Below are positions 9,271 to 41,385 of a DNA stretch of 64,000 bases, piece after piece. The DNA lies in the NCBI GenBank assembly GCA_905182865.1, contig CAJJCY010000002.1, forward strand, positions 629,040 through 693,039, read 5' to 3'. Made by a program: the position numbers and the translations under genes. Below the pieces are notes generated by a model. It saw nothing but the letters and a program-made list of their open reading frames with translations. It had not been told where the DNA came from and made no database searches. Numbering within the stretch: position 1 is the first letter of the stretch; each line of letters starts with the position of its first letter. This stretch comes from an uncultured SAR324 cluster bacterium. Its GTDB lineage: Bacteria; SAR324; NAC60-12.

Positions 9271-10552
9271 ATGGCGAATACAGCAAGACTTGAAGTCAAT
9301 GAAATATCTATTGATCTCCCACTGGTTATTGGGAGTGAAAGTGAAATTGGCATTGATATTAGTAAATTACGTTCTCAAACAAAAGCAATAACTCTTGATC
9401 CAGGCTTTGTTAATACAGGATCTTGTGAAAGCAGTATTACATACTTGGATGGTGAGAAGGGTATTTTGCGTTATAGAGGTTATCCAATTGAACAACTTGC
9501 AGAAAAATCAAATTTCCTTGAAGTCAGTTATTTATTGATTTATGGCGAATTGCCTACAAATCAGCAGTTGAATGACTTTGAATACAATGTTAAACAGCAT
9601 ACTTTGCTCCACGAAGATGTCAGGCACATTTATCAGGCCTTTCCCAAGGACGCTCACCCGATGGCAATTCTTTCAAGCATCGTCTGTGCACTTTCAACAT
9701 TCTATCCTGATTTCAGTGCTACCGACAGTGATGCAGTAGATTTGGCGATTTGGCGTCTGATGGGCAAACTCCCCACCATCGCAGCCTGGTCATACAAAAA
9801 AAATATTGGCCAGCCTTTTGTTTATCCAATTAACGAATTCACTTATACTAAAAACTTTCTGAATATGTTATTTGGTGTACCTACCACGAATTATGAAGTT
9901 CCAGAGGAATTCGTGAAAGCCCTTAATGTACTTTTCATTTTACATGCAGATCATGAACAGAATTGTTCAACCTCCACAGTTAGATTGGTGGGCAGCAGTC
10001 ATGCAAGTTTATACGCATCAGTTTCGGCAGGTATTGCTGCACTTTGGGGTCCATTGCATGGAGGGGCAAATCAAGCGGTTTTGGAAATGTTGAAGCGATT
10101 AAAGCTGATGGTGGTGACACTAAAAATTTGTAAAACTTGCCAAAGACAAAGGTTCAGGTTTTCGCTTGATGGGATTTGGGCATCGTGTATATAAAAATTT
10201 TGATCCAAGAGCCACTATCCTGAAAGGTTACTGCGATAAAATATTAGATCTGCTTGGAACTCCGGATCCTTTGTTGGATATTGCAAAGCAACTTGAGGAA
10301 GCAGCATTGACTGATGAATATTTTATTGAACGGAATCTTTATCCAAATGTGGACTTTTACAGCGGAATCATCTATAAAGCCCTTGGCTTTCCAACAGACA
10401 TGTTTACAGTCCTTTTTTCTCTGGGACGTTTGCCAGGCTGGATTGCACATTGGCTGGAAATGCGGAATGGAATCTCAAAAATTGGACGACCACGACAGAT
10501 TTATACAGGAGAAACTGAGCGAAATTATGAATCTCTCAGTCAACGTAACTGA
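9271..10552 (+). CDS. gltA: Citrate synthase, interrupted by two frameshifts
   Basis: First enzyme of the TCA cycle (oxaloacetate + acetyl-CoA). The first segment runs from MANTARLEV to [11 protein letters not shown] (about residue 275) with conserved [15 protein letters not shown] and [12 protein letters not shown]; the last segment from 10166 carries [16 protein letters not shown] and the end [15 protein letters not shown]. Between them one base is missing after about 10092 (the next frame reads [11 protein letters not shown]) and another near 10128 (next frame [13 protein letters not shown] reads on into the last segment). Both breaks lie within about 40 bases, and correcting them restores a normal protein of about 427 residues. 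Indel error in the sequence is more likely than a dead gene, since no other citrate synthase is seen here. Confidence 0.9.
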
Positions 10553-15809: not shown

Positions 15810-17760
15810 TCAATTATTATGAGGCGAGTTCTTTGGTGAGACTATTCTTTTCTTTCTGATTTTCTTATGAGCAGGAACGGGCAATCTTTCAAGAATACGA
15901 GAGTAGATTTGCTCCATACTCAATTCAGCCGACCTTAGTTGTTCATCCGGGTTCCCTTGTGCTATGAAGCGATCAGGAACACCAAGCTGCAGAGTAGGCA
16001 CACAAATACCATTTACACTAAGAGTTTCAAGCACACCACTGCCGAAACCTCCGTGGATTGTATTTTCTTCAAGGCTTACCAGTAATTGTACTTCTTTACC
16101 AAGCCTAACAATTACATCTTCATCCAGCGGTTTGACAAATCTTGCGTTTACAACAGCAACAGAGTAACCATCCTTTTCAAGAAGATCTGCTGTCTTCTCT
16201 GCAATATCGACCATTGAACCTATCGCAAACAGCGCAATATCTTTCCCTTTTCGTAAAATTTGTGCTTTGCCAAATTCAATTTGAGAACAATCATTTTCGT
16301 CAGGATTAGCAGTATTTCCTCTTGGGTAGCGTATTGCCGAGGGACCGCTTTCATTATTATAGGCAAGTTCCATCATGCCGCGCAATTCCTGCCCATCCCG
16401 GGGGACCATTATTGTCATGTTTGGAATCATTCGCAGGTAAGTCAAGTCATACAATCCGTGATGGGTCGGGCCATCAGCTCCAACAAATCCTGCTCTGTCG
16501 AGCATGAAGCGTACCGGTAATTTTTGAATTGCTACGTCGTGTATAATGTGATCAAGTGCACGCTGCAAAAATGTTGAATAAATGGCAACAAATGGTTTAC
16601 TACCTGTGGTTGCAAGTCCTGCTGAGCACGTCACAGCATGACCTTCAGCGATACCAACATCAAGCACACGTTCCGGATATTTTGGTTTCAGTTTAACGAT
16701 ACCCGTTCCACTCAGCATGGCGGCAGTCACAACCACGACTTGTTCATCTCTTGCCATCAATTCTTCTAGTTTGTTTCCAAAAACCTGAGAAAAACTAATT
16801 ACATTTCCGGATGATTTTTTCTTTACAAATTTACCATCCTCTGGTTCGAATGGGGTAACACCATGATACTTATAGGCATCTTCTTCAGCAAAAGCATAGC
16901 CTTTACCTTTTTGTGTAATGGAGTGAATAACAATGGGACCGTCTAAATCCTTAACATGATTTATTAAATCCAGCAGTTCTGAAAGATCATGACCATCGAC
17001 TGTACCAAAATATCGCCAACCCAATTGTTCAAAGAACATACTTGGCGGAGAAAAAAAGCTCTTTGCAGAATCGTGTAATTTCTGTAAAGTAGTTTTCAGA
17101 CCCAGTCGTTCAGAAAAAGGTGCCTTCTCTGCGAATTCCAGAGTTTCTTCACGGAATCTATTGTAAAACCTGGAAGAGGCAAAGCGAGTCAATAATTTTG
17201 AAATTGCACCAACATTTGGATCTATACTGACGCTGTTATCATTGTAAATAACCAGCATGTTTTTATCGAGAGCCCCATTGTGATTAAGTGCTTCAAAAGC
17301 TAAACCTCCGGTCATTGCTCCATCTCCAATAACAGCAATTACATGTGTTTGATTTATTTGATAGATCACGACCAACCGCCATTCCTAATGCTGCTGAAAT
17401 TGAAGTTGAGGCATGTCCTGCTCCAAAATGGTCGAAACTACTTTCGTCACGTGAGAGAAATTTTTTGATGCCACCGGCTTTACCAAGCGAATCAAATTTT
17501 TCATTGCGGCCGGTCAGAATTTTATAGGCGTAGGCCTGGTGTCCTACGTCCCAGACAATTCGGTCAATGTTGAAATTAAAATTTTTCAGCAATGCTACTG
17601 TGATTTCAACAGTACCAAGGGAAGAAGCAAGATGGCCTCCACGTTGGCTGGTGACTTCGATGATACGTTGACGGCATTCTTCGGCCAACTGAGTTAATTC
17701 TTTCAAATTTAAGTTTTGTATCTCTGTAGGTTGTGAGATACTTTCCAATAACGATTTCAT
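15810..17760 (-). CDS. dxs: 1-deoxy-D-xylulose-5-phosphate synthase, one frameshift
   Basis: Thiamine-diphosphate enzyme joining pyruvate and glyceraldehyde-3-phosphate, first step of the MEP pathway. The N-terminal segment (17760 to about 17345) has ECRQRIIEVTSQRGGHLASS and WDVGHQAYAYKILTGR with the catalytic-region His residues; the second segment starts with VIAVIGDGAMTGGLAFEALNH (ThDP GDG motif) and continues through DRAGFVGADGPTHHG and PRDGQELRGMMELA to the transketolase C-domain. The two are in different frames and join around 17340-17375 (AVGRDL / NQTHVIAV). Corrected length is about 640 residues, normal for Dxs. An indel error is likely because the gene is essential in organisms that rely on this pathway. 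Confidence 0.92.
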
Positions 17761-34024: not shown

Positions 34025-36785
34025 ATGTCAGTTCCTCAAGTAGAAACTCCGATGATGCATCCTATTCCAGGTGGTGCAACAGCAAGGCCTTTTAATACCT
34101 ATCATAATGCCTTTTATGAAATGTTTGGAGATGACGCAATTGTGGGCGCAAAAGTTTTGCAAATTGCGCTTACCTCACGTGACAAAAAAAAGAAAAAATC
34201 ATTGCCAATGTGCGGAGTACCATATAAAGCTTATGAGCAATATTTAAATAAGTTGACTGCGGCAGGTTATAAGGTGGCCATTTGTGAGCAAATGGAAGAT
34301 CCTGCAAAAGCACAGGGGCTTGTTGCACGGGATGTTGTGAGAGTTGTGACTCCCGGAACTACTGTTTCTCCGCAGTTGATAGATCCAAACAGAAACCACT
34401 TTTTACTGGCAATCAATGTTGTTTTGCGTGCCCAGTGTTTAGGAATTGCCTTTGTTGATCTTTCAACAGGTGAGTTTGAGGTGGCAGAATTTCAATTAAA
34501 TGAAACTCATCGGTTCTATGATTTTCTTGCGCAACTTACTCCACAGGAAATTCTATTAACTCAAAGCCGTTCTGAAATAGAATCCACGTTTTTGGAAGAA
34601 TTGGTGCAGCGGATGACACAATTACTGGATAAGATAAATTCTGCCGATGCCAGATCCGTGACTTCTTCGGAACAGATTACAGGGCTGCAGAATGCTCAGG
34701 TTTTTCCTTCGACAGGACGTTTTAATTTCATTGATCCATATCATTTTGATCTGGAAGCAACACAACGAAATTTGAACAATCATTTTGAAACGCTGAATCT
34801 TTCCGGATTTGGGATTGATGATTTGCCACATGGAATTGCTGCTGCAGGGGCATTATTACGCTATTTGGAGGAAACTCAAAAATGTGATTTGAGCCATCTT
34901 ACAGCTTTGAGGCGCTATGCTTTTGATAAAACTATGCTCCTCGACGAAGCAACAGTGGCTAATTTGGAATTGTTTGAGAGTCAGTCCGGAGCGAGGAAAC
35001 ACACGCTTTACCATATTCTAAATCATACTAAGACTCCAATGGGTGCAAGGCTTTTCAGGCAGTGGTTACGTCAGCCGCTGCTTGATGTGGAGGCAATTAA
35101 TGAACGTTTTGACTGTATTGAAGAGTTCCGGAATAATTTTATGCTTTGTGAAGAGTTCCGTGAATGCCTGGAAAATATCCAGGATTTACCGCGCATTATT
35201 GGACGCATTACTTTACCAGTGGTTGGTGTGAACGATCTTGTGGCTTTACGTGAATCACTGGAACCAGTGCAGAAACTGCCTTCCTATTTGGCAGAGTTAC
35301 AAGCGTCGTTGTTAAAAAATATTGCAGAAAATTTTGATACGCTCACCGATTTGTTAGACCTGCTATATCAGCGACTACTGGAGGCACCTTCAGTTAAACT
35401 TCGAGAAGGTGGTTTTATGGCCGCAGGTGTTTCTGAAGAATTGGACGAGTTACGTGAAATATCAAGAAATTCCAAACAATTCCAAATCGAATCACGGGAG
35501 AAATAGAGAACACAGGAATTAGCTCTTTAAAAATTAGTTACAACAAAGTTTTTGGTTACTACCTTGAAGTCAGTAATGTCCATAAATCCTCTGTCCCAGA
35601 CAATAGCAAAGTCGAACTAAATGAAGAAAGGAGGTATCAAATGTTTTACAAAAAGAATTTGAAGAAAAAATACTTACTGCAGAAGAACGAATAGGTAAAT
35701 TGGAGTATGAACTATTTCAGCAGCTAAAAACTGAAATCAACTCTAACGCCAGGCGAGTGCAGCAGACTGCAAATGACATTGCTGTAGCGGATACGCTGGC
35801 GGGACTGGCATTTGTCGCAGAAAACAATCACTACGTGCGACCAAGTCTACATCCTCTTGAAGCTCCTAGAAAATTGTTTTTGAAAGATAGTCGACATCCT
35901 GTTATTGAACAAATAGATCTGGGTGAAGTGTTTGTCCCCAATGATTTGGATTTGGAAGAATCAAAGTGTCGGATCATGTTAATCACAGGGCCGAATATGG
36001 CAGGCAAATCAACCTACATGAGACAAGTTGCGCTAATTGTCCTGATGGCTCAATGTGGAAGTTTTGTGCCTGTTTCGAGCTCAGAATTTTCTGTAGTGGA
36101 TAGAATTTTTACACGTGTTGGTGCATCAGACAATCTTACACTTGGTCAAAGTACTTTTATGCTGGAAATGAACGAAGCTGCTGCAATTTTGAACAATGCG
36201 ACTGAAAGAAGTTTGATTATTCTGGATGAAATCGGACGTGGAACGAGTACTTTCGACGGTATTAGTATTGCTTGGGCAATTGTAGAGTATATCCAAAAAT
36301 TGAGTGCCCTGACGCTTTGTGCTACTCATTACCATGAATTGACTTCAATTACGCAAGAACTGGATTCAGTAAAAAATTTCAGCATTCGTGTTGAGGAAGA
36401 AGGAGAGAAAATTGTTTTTTTGCGTAAAATTGTTTCAGGAGAAGCCGACAAAAGTTATGGAGTACAAGTAGCCAAGCTGGCTGGACTCCCAAAAAGCGTG
36501 GTAAATCGTGCTCTTGAGGTTATGGAACAATTGGAAAAAACGTCAATGGTCCATCATTTGCCTGTACTTATAAATGAGACACAGAAGAAACAAAAAAATT
36601 CTGCAGAGGTTAGTGAAAATTCTGGAAATTCTTGGGTAAATTCTGTAAATGAGAATCAACAGTTGTCCTTGTTTCCAGAGGAATCACTCTACCTTGATGA
36701 GTTGTGCAAACTGAATTTGAATGATATGACCCCGTTGCAGGCACTAAACTATCTTCATGAATTAACTGACAAAATGCGGAAGTAG
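34025..36785 (+). CDS. mutS: DNA mismatch repair protein MutS, several frameshifts
   Basis: MutS recognises mismatches in DNA. Present are TPMM and FYEMFGDDA (mismatch-reading Phe-x-Glu), ICEQMEDPA, the lever domain, [17 protein letters not shown] (Walker A), [13 protein letters not shown] (Walker B) and THYHELT. The frame is broken three times: between about 34055 and 34110 a +1 frame reads [11 protein letters not shown], resembling the usual YLQVKQQ segment, before the original frame resumes; near 35500 the frame moves to [20 protein letters not shown]; near 35637 it moves again to [20 protein letters not shown]. Corrected length is about 900 residues. The errors may be sequence indels or real loss; if real, the host would be a mutator. 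Confidence 0.9.
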
Positions 36786-38012: not shown

Positions 38013-38085
38013 GATCAAAAATAATTGTAAATTAATTTATTTTTGATCTTGACACTCCTGACGAGCTTCGCTAGGGTGCAAGATC
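38013..38085. repeat. Nested inverted repeats between the FtsK-like and SelW genes
   Basis: A perfect 12-base inverted repeat (GATCAAAAATAA at 38013-38024, complement at 38037-38048) with a 12-base spacer overlaps a second one, GATCTTG at 38045 with CAAGATC ending 38085, which encloses a GAGCTTCGCTAGGGTG core. The first could act as a terminator; the second has the look of an interspersed palindromic element. Confidence 0.45.
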
Positions 38086-38157
38086 TTCGAACTCGAATAC
38101 AACAGTATATTTACGAGGCAATAATAAATTAAAAACTTTTTAATGATAAACAGAAAT

Positions 38158-38376
38158 ATGAATATAAAAATATACTACTGTGTGGTTTGAAACTACAAGC
38201 CCAGTGCAGTCAGTTTGGCTGCAGAATTAAAAGCATCCTTTGGTGTGGATTCCGAACTTTTTTCGGGTGAGAAGGGTGACTTTGAAGTGGTTGTGGATGG
38301 TAAAACAGTTTTCTCCAAGAAAAAACTGTCAAGGTTCCCTGAGCCCGGAGAAGTAACAGAGACACTCAGGGAATAA
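38158..38376 (+). CDS. SelW-family selenoprotein (CVVU redox motif)
   Basis: 72 residues read from the ATG at 38158 through an in-frame TGA at 38188-38190 to TAA at 38374. The start MNIKIYYCVVU-NYKP is the Rdx/SelW pattern (strand, C-x-x-U/C, NYxP), with TGA at codon 11 where selenocysteine is expected. The rest fits too: SLAAELKASFGVDSELFSG, GDFEVVVDGKTVFSKK and RFPEPGEV match the family's body, and length is normal. A hairpin TGCAG/CTGCA with a nine-base GU-containing loop at 38205-38223 sits 14 bases after the TGA, where a bacterial SECIS belongs. The protein is a thioredoxin-like-fold redox protein of the SelT/SelW/SelH group; its partner is unknown. It requires SelB and tRNA-Sec, not in this window. 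Confidence 0.88.
38205..38223 (+). promoter_or_regulatory. Candidate bacterial SECIS hairpin (SelW gene)
   Basis: Perfect 5-base stem TGCAG/CTGCA with loop TCAGTTTGG, beginning 14 bases after the in-frame TGA; the loop's GU lies about 23 bases after the codon. This spacing and the G-U in the apical loop agree with bacterial SECIS elements recognised by SelB. Confidence 0.65.
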
Positions 38377-39604: not shown

Positions 39605-41124
39605 CTAGAAGAGTTGTTTACGTTTGTTTGAAGGAAGGATTTTGAGGGCTTCTCTATATTTTGCTACAGTTCTACGAGCAACTTTAATTCCACTTTTACG
39701 ATCCAGAACATCTGCGATCTGCAAATCTGTATAAGGTGATTTAAGATTTTCTTTTTGCACCATTTGCATGATCATATCTTTTATCCGTTTTGAAGAAACT
39801 GCTTCTCCTATACCTTGATCAATGCCACTTGTGAAGAAATATTTTAATTCAAAGATTCCTTGAGGAGTGTGAACATATTTATTGGTAGTGATTCGGCTGA
39901 CCGTTGACTCGTGTACGTCAATATCTTCAGCAACATTTTTCAGTACAAGCGGTCGCAAAAAGTGGATACCTTTTTCAAAGAATTGCTTTTGAAAGCGGAG
40001 TATGCTTTTAGTCACACGGTAAATAGTCTTTTGTCTCTGCTCTATACTTTTTAGCAGCCATTGGCCCGCTTTAACTTTTTCTAAAATATAATCTTTTGTG
40101 AGGCTACCGTCATCCTCCATAGTATTGCTCAAATCTTTATAATAATATGGATGAACTTTGTATAAACCAGATAGATCTGAAATATTTTCTTTATATTCAC
40201 CATCTTTTTGATAGATATAGACATCAGGAATTATGTAATGATGTGATGGATTGGAAATAAACTCTCTTCCAGGTTTTGGCTCAAATGTTCTACACCTGCT
40301 GAAACAACATGTATCCATTTTAAATTAGGTGAAATTTTTTTAAGATCTTTTGATTCCAGTAGCGGCATGTCATTTTTGACTATGCGGGTACTCAAACTGT
40401 CAATTTCGCCCAAAATATCCAACTGAATTAACAGACACTCCTGTAAATTTCTGGCGCCAACCCCGTTCGGATTGAATTGTTGTATTTTACCCAATACATA
40501 TTCTACGAAGGCACCGACTGCCGATGGAACTTCAAGCTTTTTTGGTTCTTCTTCCGGAATAATCTCTTCTTCATCAAAGCTAGAAAGTTCTTCTTTTTTC
40601 TTTTTTTTCTTTTGTGTTGATTTGCCAGATTGAAATTTTAGGTCTAACAAATCAGGATCAACTTCTGGTAGTTCAGGTAATTCACCACTTTTATGTTGTG
40701 CAATAATTAGTTCGTATAAATCATACTGTGATTCTAACAGTTCTCGGATACTGGTTACCAGAAAACCATCATCATCTATGTTACCAATCAAGTATGCACC
40801 TGTTTTATATTCAAGGGGAGAAAGTTCCAGCATGTCTAACTGCCATACCAGGTGATCTGCTAAAGATTCTCTTTGTGCGGCTGTGGCTTCAATAGAGGGA
40901 TATTCCTCGTCGTCTGAAACTGAATTATATCGACGTTCCTGATAACCTCCGAACTGCTCTACTTGTTCAATATACTGCTGCCAATCAACTTCGTCCTGTT
41001 CTTTATTATTCGGTTCGTTTTCACGGGCAGTTTCGAAGTCGTCTGTATCGGTAACCACTTCAGGACTGTCTGAAGTTTCCGTTGTTTCTTGAGAATCTTC
41101 TGTTTTGTTAGGGAAGGTGTCCAT
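39605..41124 (-). CDS. rpoN: RNA polymerase sigma-54 factor, frameshifted and lacking a clear N-terminus
   Basis: The C-terminal segment carries VHESTVSRITTNKYVHTPQGI (DNA-binding HTH) and the RpoN box ARRTVAKYRE. The N-terminal segment has the acidic region II, then LADHLVWQLDMLELSP and FNPNGVGARNLQECLLIQL. They lie in different frames that join near 40275 (SAGVEHL / EPKPGREFISNPS). Upstream of the ATG at 41124 the same frame continues back with ENPVLEEGID, the end of region I, but a TAA at 41188 and loss of similarity beyond about 41205 leave the glutamine-rich activator-response region missing. A frameshift error is likely for the first break; region I may be lost or badly garbled. Confidence 0.88.
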
Positions 41125-41385
41125 ATCTATTCCTTCCTCAAGAACAGGGTTCTCGATTAGAGTTAAATCGAGGTGCTTCTGGGCGAATTATTTTGAAGCT
41201 TGTAAATGCAGTGGCCCCTAGAGTTAGATTTTTATTCCAATCATTATCTGCATTTTCATCTGCATTATCAGATATGTATCTGTCAATAATAGAGTTATGA
41301 AAATTATTTTCAAAATTGGTTGATTAAGAAATGATCTTAATATGCTTAGTATTAAGTTCACTCCAAGTTGAGGAAAAAGTCAAAC

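Follow-up and report, generated by a model that had tools for sequence, protein, structure and literature searches.

A SelW-like gene with a predicted selenocysteine UGA codon and a predicted SECIS hairpin inside its coding sequence in a SAR324-type bacterium

A selW-like gene was found on the forward strand of the window, the whole stretch of 64,000 nucleotides that was analysed. Judged by sequence comparison, it is almost certainly a functional gene of a SAR324-type bacterium in which the UGA at 38188 stands for selenocysteine. SAR324-type bacteria are known mainly from the ocean. The gene and its elements are as follows.

38158..38376, + strand: selW-like selenoprotein CDS, 72 aa plus TAA stop, predicted Sec at residue 11
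38179..38190, + strand: CVVU active-site motif (CxxU), residues 8-11
38188..38190, + strand: UGA codon, predicted to be read as selenocysteine; one TGA and no Cys codon across 45 genomes
38205..38223, + strand: predicted bacterial SECIS hairpin UGCAGUC-AGUUU-GGCUGCA, 7 bp, inside the CDS
38213..38213, + strand: apical-loop G, followed by U here; G in 24/24 distinct sequences

The reading frame contains a single in-frame TGA, at 38188-38190, and is open only when this codon is read through. With standard decoding, the one ORF listed at the selW locus was a C-terminal piece of 53 aa that starts with TTG. The earlier note had claimed that a 72-residue protein appears only by reading through the TGA at 38188, and its coordinates, the single TGA and the length were all exact. 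With this TGA translated as U, the protein reads MNIKIYYCVVUNYKPSAVSLAAELKASFGVDSELFSGEKGDFEVVVDGKTVFSKKKLSRFPEPGEVTETLRE. Another in-frame ATG is located upstream at 38143; the start was set at 38158 because conservation among relatives begins there. At the CxxU motif, an alignment of 19 sequences showed three invariant positions: the first Cys, that of Sec, and the Asn directly after it.

The read-through protein was compared with family models. It scored 64.3 bits against Pfam Rdx (PF10262; cut-off 22.6, 1.2e-17), 60.4 bits against TIGR02174 CXXU_selWTH (curated cut-off 34.2) and 92.4 bits against NF041051 SelTWH_Campy (equivalog cut-off 88). All three matches were above their cut-offs, bearing out the Rdx/SelW pattern that the earlier note had recognized from the letters. 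Both NF041051 and TIGR02174 were also matched by 19/19 aligned relatives (E<=0.001). An AlphaFold2 model built from the 19-sequence alignment (pLDDT 88) showed the order E-H-E-E-E-H, with a strand at residues 3-8. The best PDB fold matches were the bacterial SelW-related structures 2FA8, 3DEX, 2OJL, 2OBK, 2P0G and 2OKA (TM about 0.9, 0.89-0.93), followed by MIEN1 and mouse SelW (TM-score 0.70 for mouse SelW), and the same set was returned by a PDB sequence search. The protein is thus predicted by the model to have a SelW-type thioredoxin-like fold, with the CxxU motif placed after strand 1.

The hairpin downstream of the UGA was examined as a candidate bacterial SECIS. Its base lies 14 nt and its loop 21 nt after the UGA, the 7 bp of the stem include one G-U, and the isolated hairpin has a folding energy of about -10 kcal/mol. 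The earlier note had described a 5-bp hairpin at a distance of 14 bases; its presence and spacing held, and the stem had to be corrected to 7 bp. The published bSECIS rules give a loop of 3-9 nt, a stem of 4-16 bp, 16-37 nt from UGA to loop, a G at loop position 1 or 2, and an MFE <= -7.5 kcal/mol (PMC13188914). With its 5-nt loop AGUUU and the G at loop position 2, the window hairpin falls within every one of them. An Rfam scan of the window returned a tRNA only, and no SECIS family was matched there.

We considered whether the SelW gene is real and the hairpin is a chance product of the coding sequence with no SECIS action. Single-sequence folding gave a z-score of only -0.38, which is not significant, and the codons for S-A-V-S-L-A-A fix several of the stem bases, both of which are in line with such a chance origin. 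However, compensatory changes were observed at third codon positions, where pair 18-36 was seen as CG, GC, AU, UA and UG, and pair 21-33 as GU, AU, GC, UA and CG, five standard pair types each. Two-sided changes occurred in 4/7 stem pairs, and a mismatch was present at SECIS pair 22-32 in some relatives. Among 24 distinct sequences, pairing was found in 90.5% of cells, compared with 77.6% for shuffled and 24-48% for slid controls, and the covariation score was 0.43, compared with 0.19+/-0.02 in shuffles and no more than 0.15 on sliding. Moreover, the Arcobacter-type sequences (n=2) have a shorter stem, CUUCU-AGGUU-AGAAG, with a weak fold (-4.2 kcal/mol) at the same place, rebuilding part of the stem from other bases while the AGNUU loop is kept. 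The published rules (PMC13188914) also agree with the position of the hairpin, the size of its loop and the G within it. The hairpin therefore stands above chance because of covariation and not because of single-sequence folding; a chance hairpin was rejected on the covariation across relatives and is regarded as very improbable.

The conservation of the UGA codon was then evaluated in 98 genomes, using a homologue search query that carried Cys at the Sec position, so that TGA was not favoured. In 45 of them, 47 homologous places were found, each with exactly one TGA, and no Cys codon at the Sec position was present among these 47 places. The TGA was at the same codon in the 36 loci that were read one by one, and the TGA-bearing homologues reached across genus, family, order, class and beyond. 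Within the family, the UGA lies where members have U or C. The dN/dS of the whole ORF was 0.04-0.19 against seven congeneric sequences, and the purifying trend was alike on either side of the TGA, the upstream part comprising 10 codons, which are few. In four relatives (L002, L005, L026 and L035) the selW-like gene itself ends in TGA, and TGA therefore serves as both Sec and stop within one message.

These data bear on the reading of the locus as a pseudogene that arose from a Cys-type SelW by nonsense mutation, in which the TGA would be a decayed TGT or TGC and the downstream frame a relic. Only short fragments are open under the standard code, and several further genes are broken in the assembly, as a decayed locus might suggest. 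In contrast, a TGA common to 45 genomes, from the genus to beyond the class and never replaced by a Cys codon, the low dN/dS over the whole ORF and the covarying hairpin all oppose it. A pseudogene was refuted by the shared TGA together with purifying selection downstream, and we give it hardly any credence.

The window's genome (G000; 3.23 Mb, 5 contigs, 86% complete) was searched for the Sec machinery. SelA (512.7 bits), SelB (350.7 bits) and SelD (265 bits) were all over cut-off, as was tRNA-Sec (54.3 bits), which ARAGORN also reported as tRNA-SeC with anticodon TCA. A search for selA, selB, selC and selD had been proposed together with the selenoprotein claim, and selA, selB, selD and the tRNA-Sec (UCA) were located. 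With the Rdx match and this machinery, neither of the two outcomes that the earlier note had named as refuting occurred. Reading of the TGA as an ordinary amino acid, through an altered genetic code or simple read-through, has nothing specific in its favour and next to no probability; it was rejected on the terminal TGA stops of the relatives' own selW-like genes and the tRNA-Sec(UCA), SelA, SelB and SelD of the genome, and the TGA also occupies the site of U or C in the family. The selenocysteine reading was retained.

SelD itself appears to contain Sec, in a KTCGUASKF stretch near its start (L054). In the assembly, selD (G000:C1 about 69991-70782), with its Sec codon in the CGU motif, and the N-terminus of selB (L008, G000:C3 about 753799-755683) are frame-broken; in relatives, selD is full-length and contains one TGA. 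The window's genome also has a second selenoprotein, a TxxU peroxiredoxin carrying TGTU within DWTGTUSREIP (L063, G000:C2:810700-811600). Another AhpC-TSA family match with one internal TGA, which may be a Prx-like selenoprotein, was observed at G000:C3:369684-370103. Among the relatives, SelA was found in 16/16 SelW-positive genomes, all at least 90% complete, versus 22/43 SelW-negative ones (Fisher p = 4e-4, a p-value that is only a guide with genomes that are related). Four SelW-positive drafts (54-86% complete) had no SelA match, and 2 more had contig-edge fragments only. Judged from their gene content, SAR324-type bacteria decode UGA as Sec and use it in SelW, a peroxiredoxin and SelD.

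From established biology, SelB and Sec-tRNA(Sec) would bind the hairpin and decode UGA 38188 as selenocysteine. The product would be a small thioredoxin-fold protein in which Cys8 and Sec11 (CVVU), in the first beta-alpha loop, carry out thiol/selenol redox chemistry. Its role would most likely be that of a glutathione-linked thiol reductase or an antioxidant.

The gene neighbourhood was also compared. Within the genus, the order coaD - membrane protein - selW - rpsU - pspA - rpoN is kept. More distant families have other neighbours, often with an HD-type protein adjoining, and no functional hint was obtained from the neighbourhood in the genus or the more distant families compared. Signs of a phage origin were sought, and none were seen. 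Compared with the 97% identical relative G001, the window contains patches of about 40-150 bp that are unrelated to it, with both flanks matching.

34062-34110, 35501-35651, 38049-38116, 40147-40188, 40283-40330, 41165-41289: patches unlike G001

Several patches fall within mutS and rpoN, which they disrupt or change; in L005 both genes are intact. When the genome was searched for other copies of the foreign patch near mutS, it was present only at its own place. Most likely, the patches are assembly fill-in errors. The patch 38049-38116 ends 41 bp upstream of the selW start, and the promoter region here is not to be trusted because this patch adjoins it. The selW ORF is intact and matches its relatives throughout. 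Elsewhere in the window, citrate synthase-like and DXS-like genes (9271-10552 and 17293-17760) appear split in two frames, which are probably further assembly indel errors.

We were also interested in what these genomes imply for the selenium trait of SAR324. In Table 1 of a 2016 survey, two SAR324 single cells were listed as 'orphan SelD' (PMC5029168), and in the literature searched no description of SAR324-type genomes as Sec decoders was found in print. These 'orphan SelD' entries are probably incomplete Sec decoders. In G009, which is 54% complete, SelD was found and SelA was not, so this genome would look like 'orphan SelD' too. Our results argue against taking the SAR324 entries (PMC5029168) as a sign of an unknown selenium trait. 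A broader proposal is that SAR324 SelW is selected specifically for Sec, that SAR324-type bacteria could then be a main source of the many open-ocean SelW-like metagenome reads, and that the SAR324 'orphan SelD' records would be artefacts of incomplete single-cell genomes. Selection for Sec is suggested because no Cys form was found in any genus- to class-level relative; as a whole, the proposal is tentative, and we hold it with somewhat less than even confidence. The gene content of an abundant, mostly uncultured marine lineage is corrected by these results, and such genes will be cut or missed by gene callers for which TGA is always a stop.

Of the selenoprotein families, the SelW-like one was the most abundant in both the Sargasso Sea survey and GOS, with 427 Sec and 56 Cys forms counted in GOS (PMC1088965, PMC2398784). 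That SelW is missed in annotation has also been reported before (PMC4607533). The Sargasso Sea and GOS proteins share with the window protein the fold family, the CxxU motif, a bacterial SECIS just after the UGA and an origin in marine bacteria; the difference is that the gene is tied here to a SAR324-type genome with complete Sec machinery, and no further difference was seen. The Arcobacter/Campylobacter SelW (NF041051; PMC4607533; L006, L007) has the same SECIS position and loop, and the Arcobacter-type loci are 42% identical to the window protein. However, it belongs to another lineage, with CGVU or CGEU instead of CVVU and with different stem bases. The model superposes on the Cys-type bacterial SelW-related structures 2FA8, 3DEX, 2P0G, 2OJL and 2OBK at TM 0.89-0.93 with 27-34% identity, and the Cys of 2FA8 is aligned to the Sec here. 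Vertebrate SELENOW (2NPB) and MIEN1/C17orf37 (2LJK) show homology both in sequence (E 3e-6 to 7e-3) and in fold. The eukaryotic SECIS sits in the 3' UTR, unlike the bacterial element inside the CDS here, and the 14-3-3 interactions of SELENOW give no basis for assigning the same to the window protein. The nearest named record, SAR324 cluster bacterium SAR324-CTD7B, shows 97% protein identity and about 97% identity in the flanking DNA, and it is on this similarity that the host is named SAR324-type. No new mechanism is opened by this locus; the SelW-like gene is an ordinary member of a well-known family and a new case in a SAR324-type genome.
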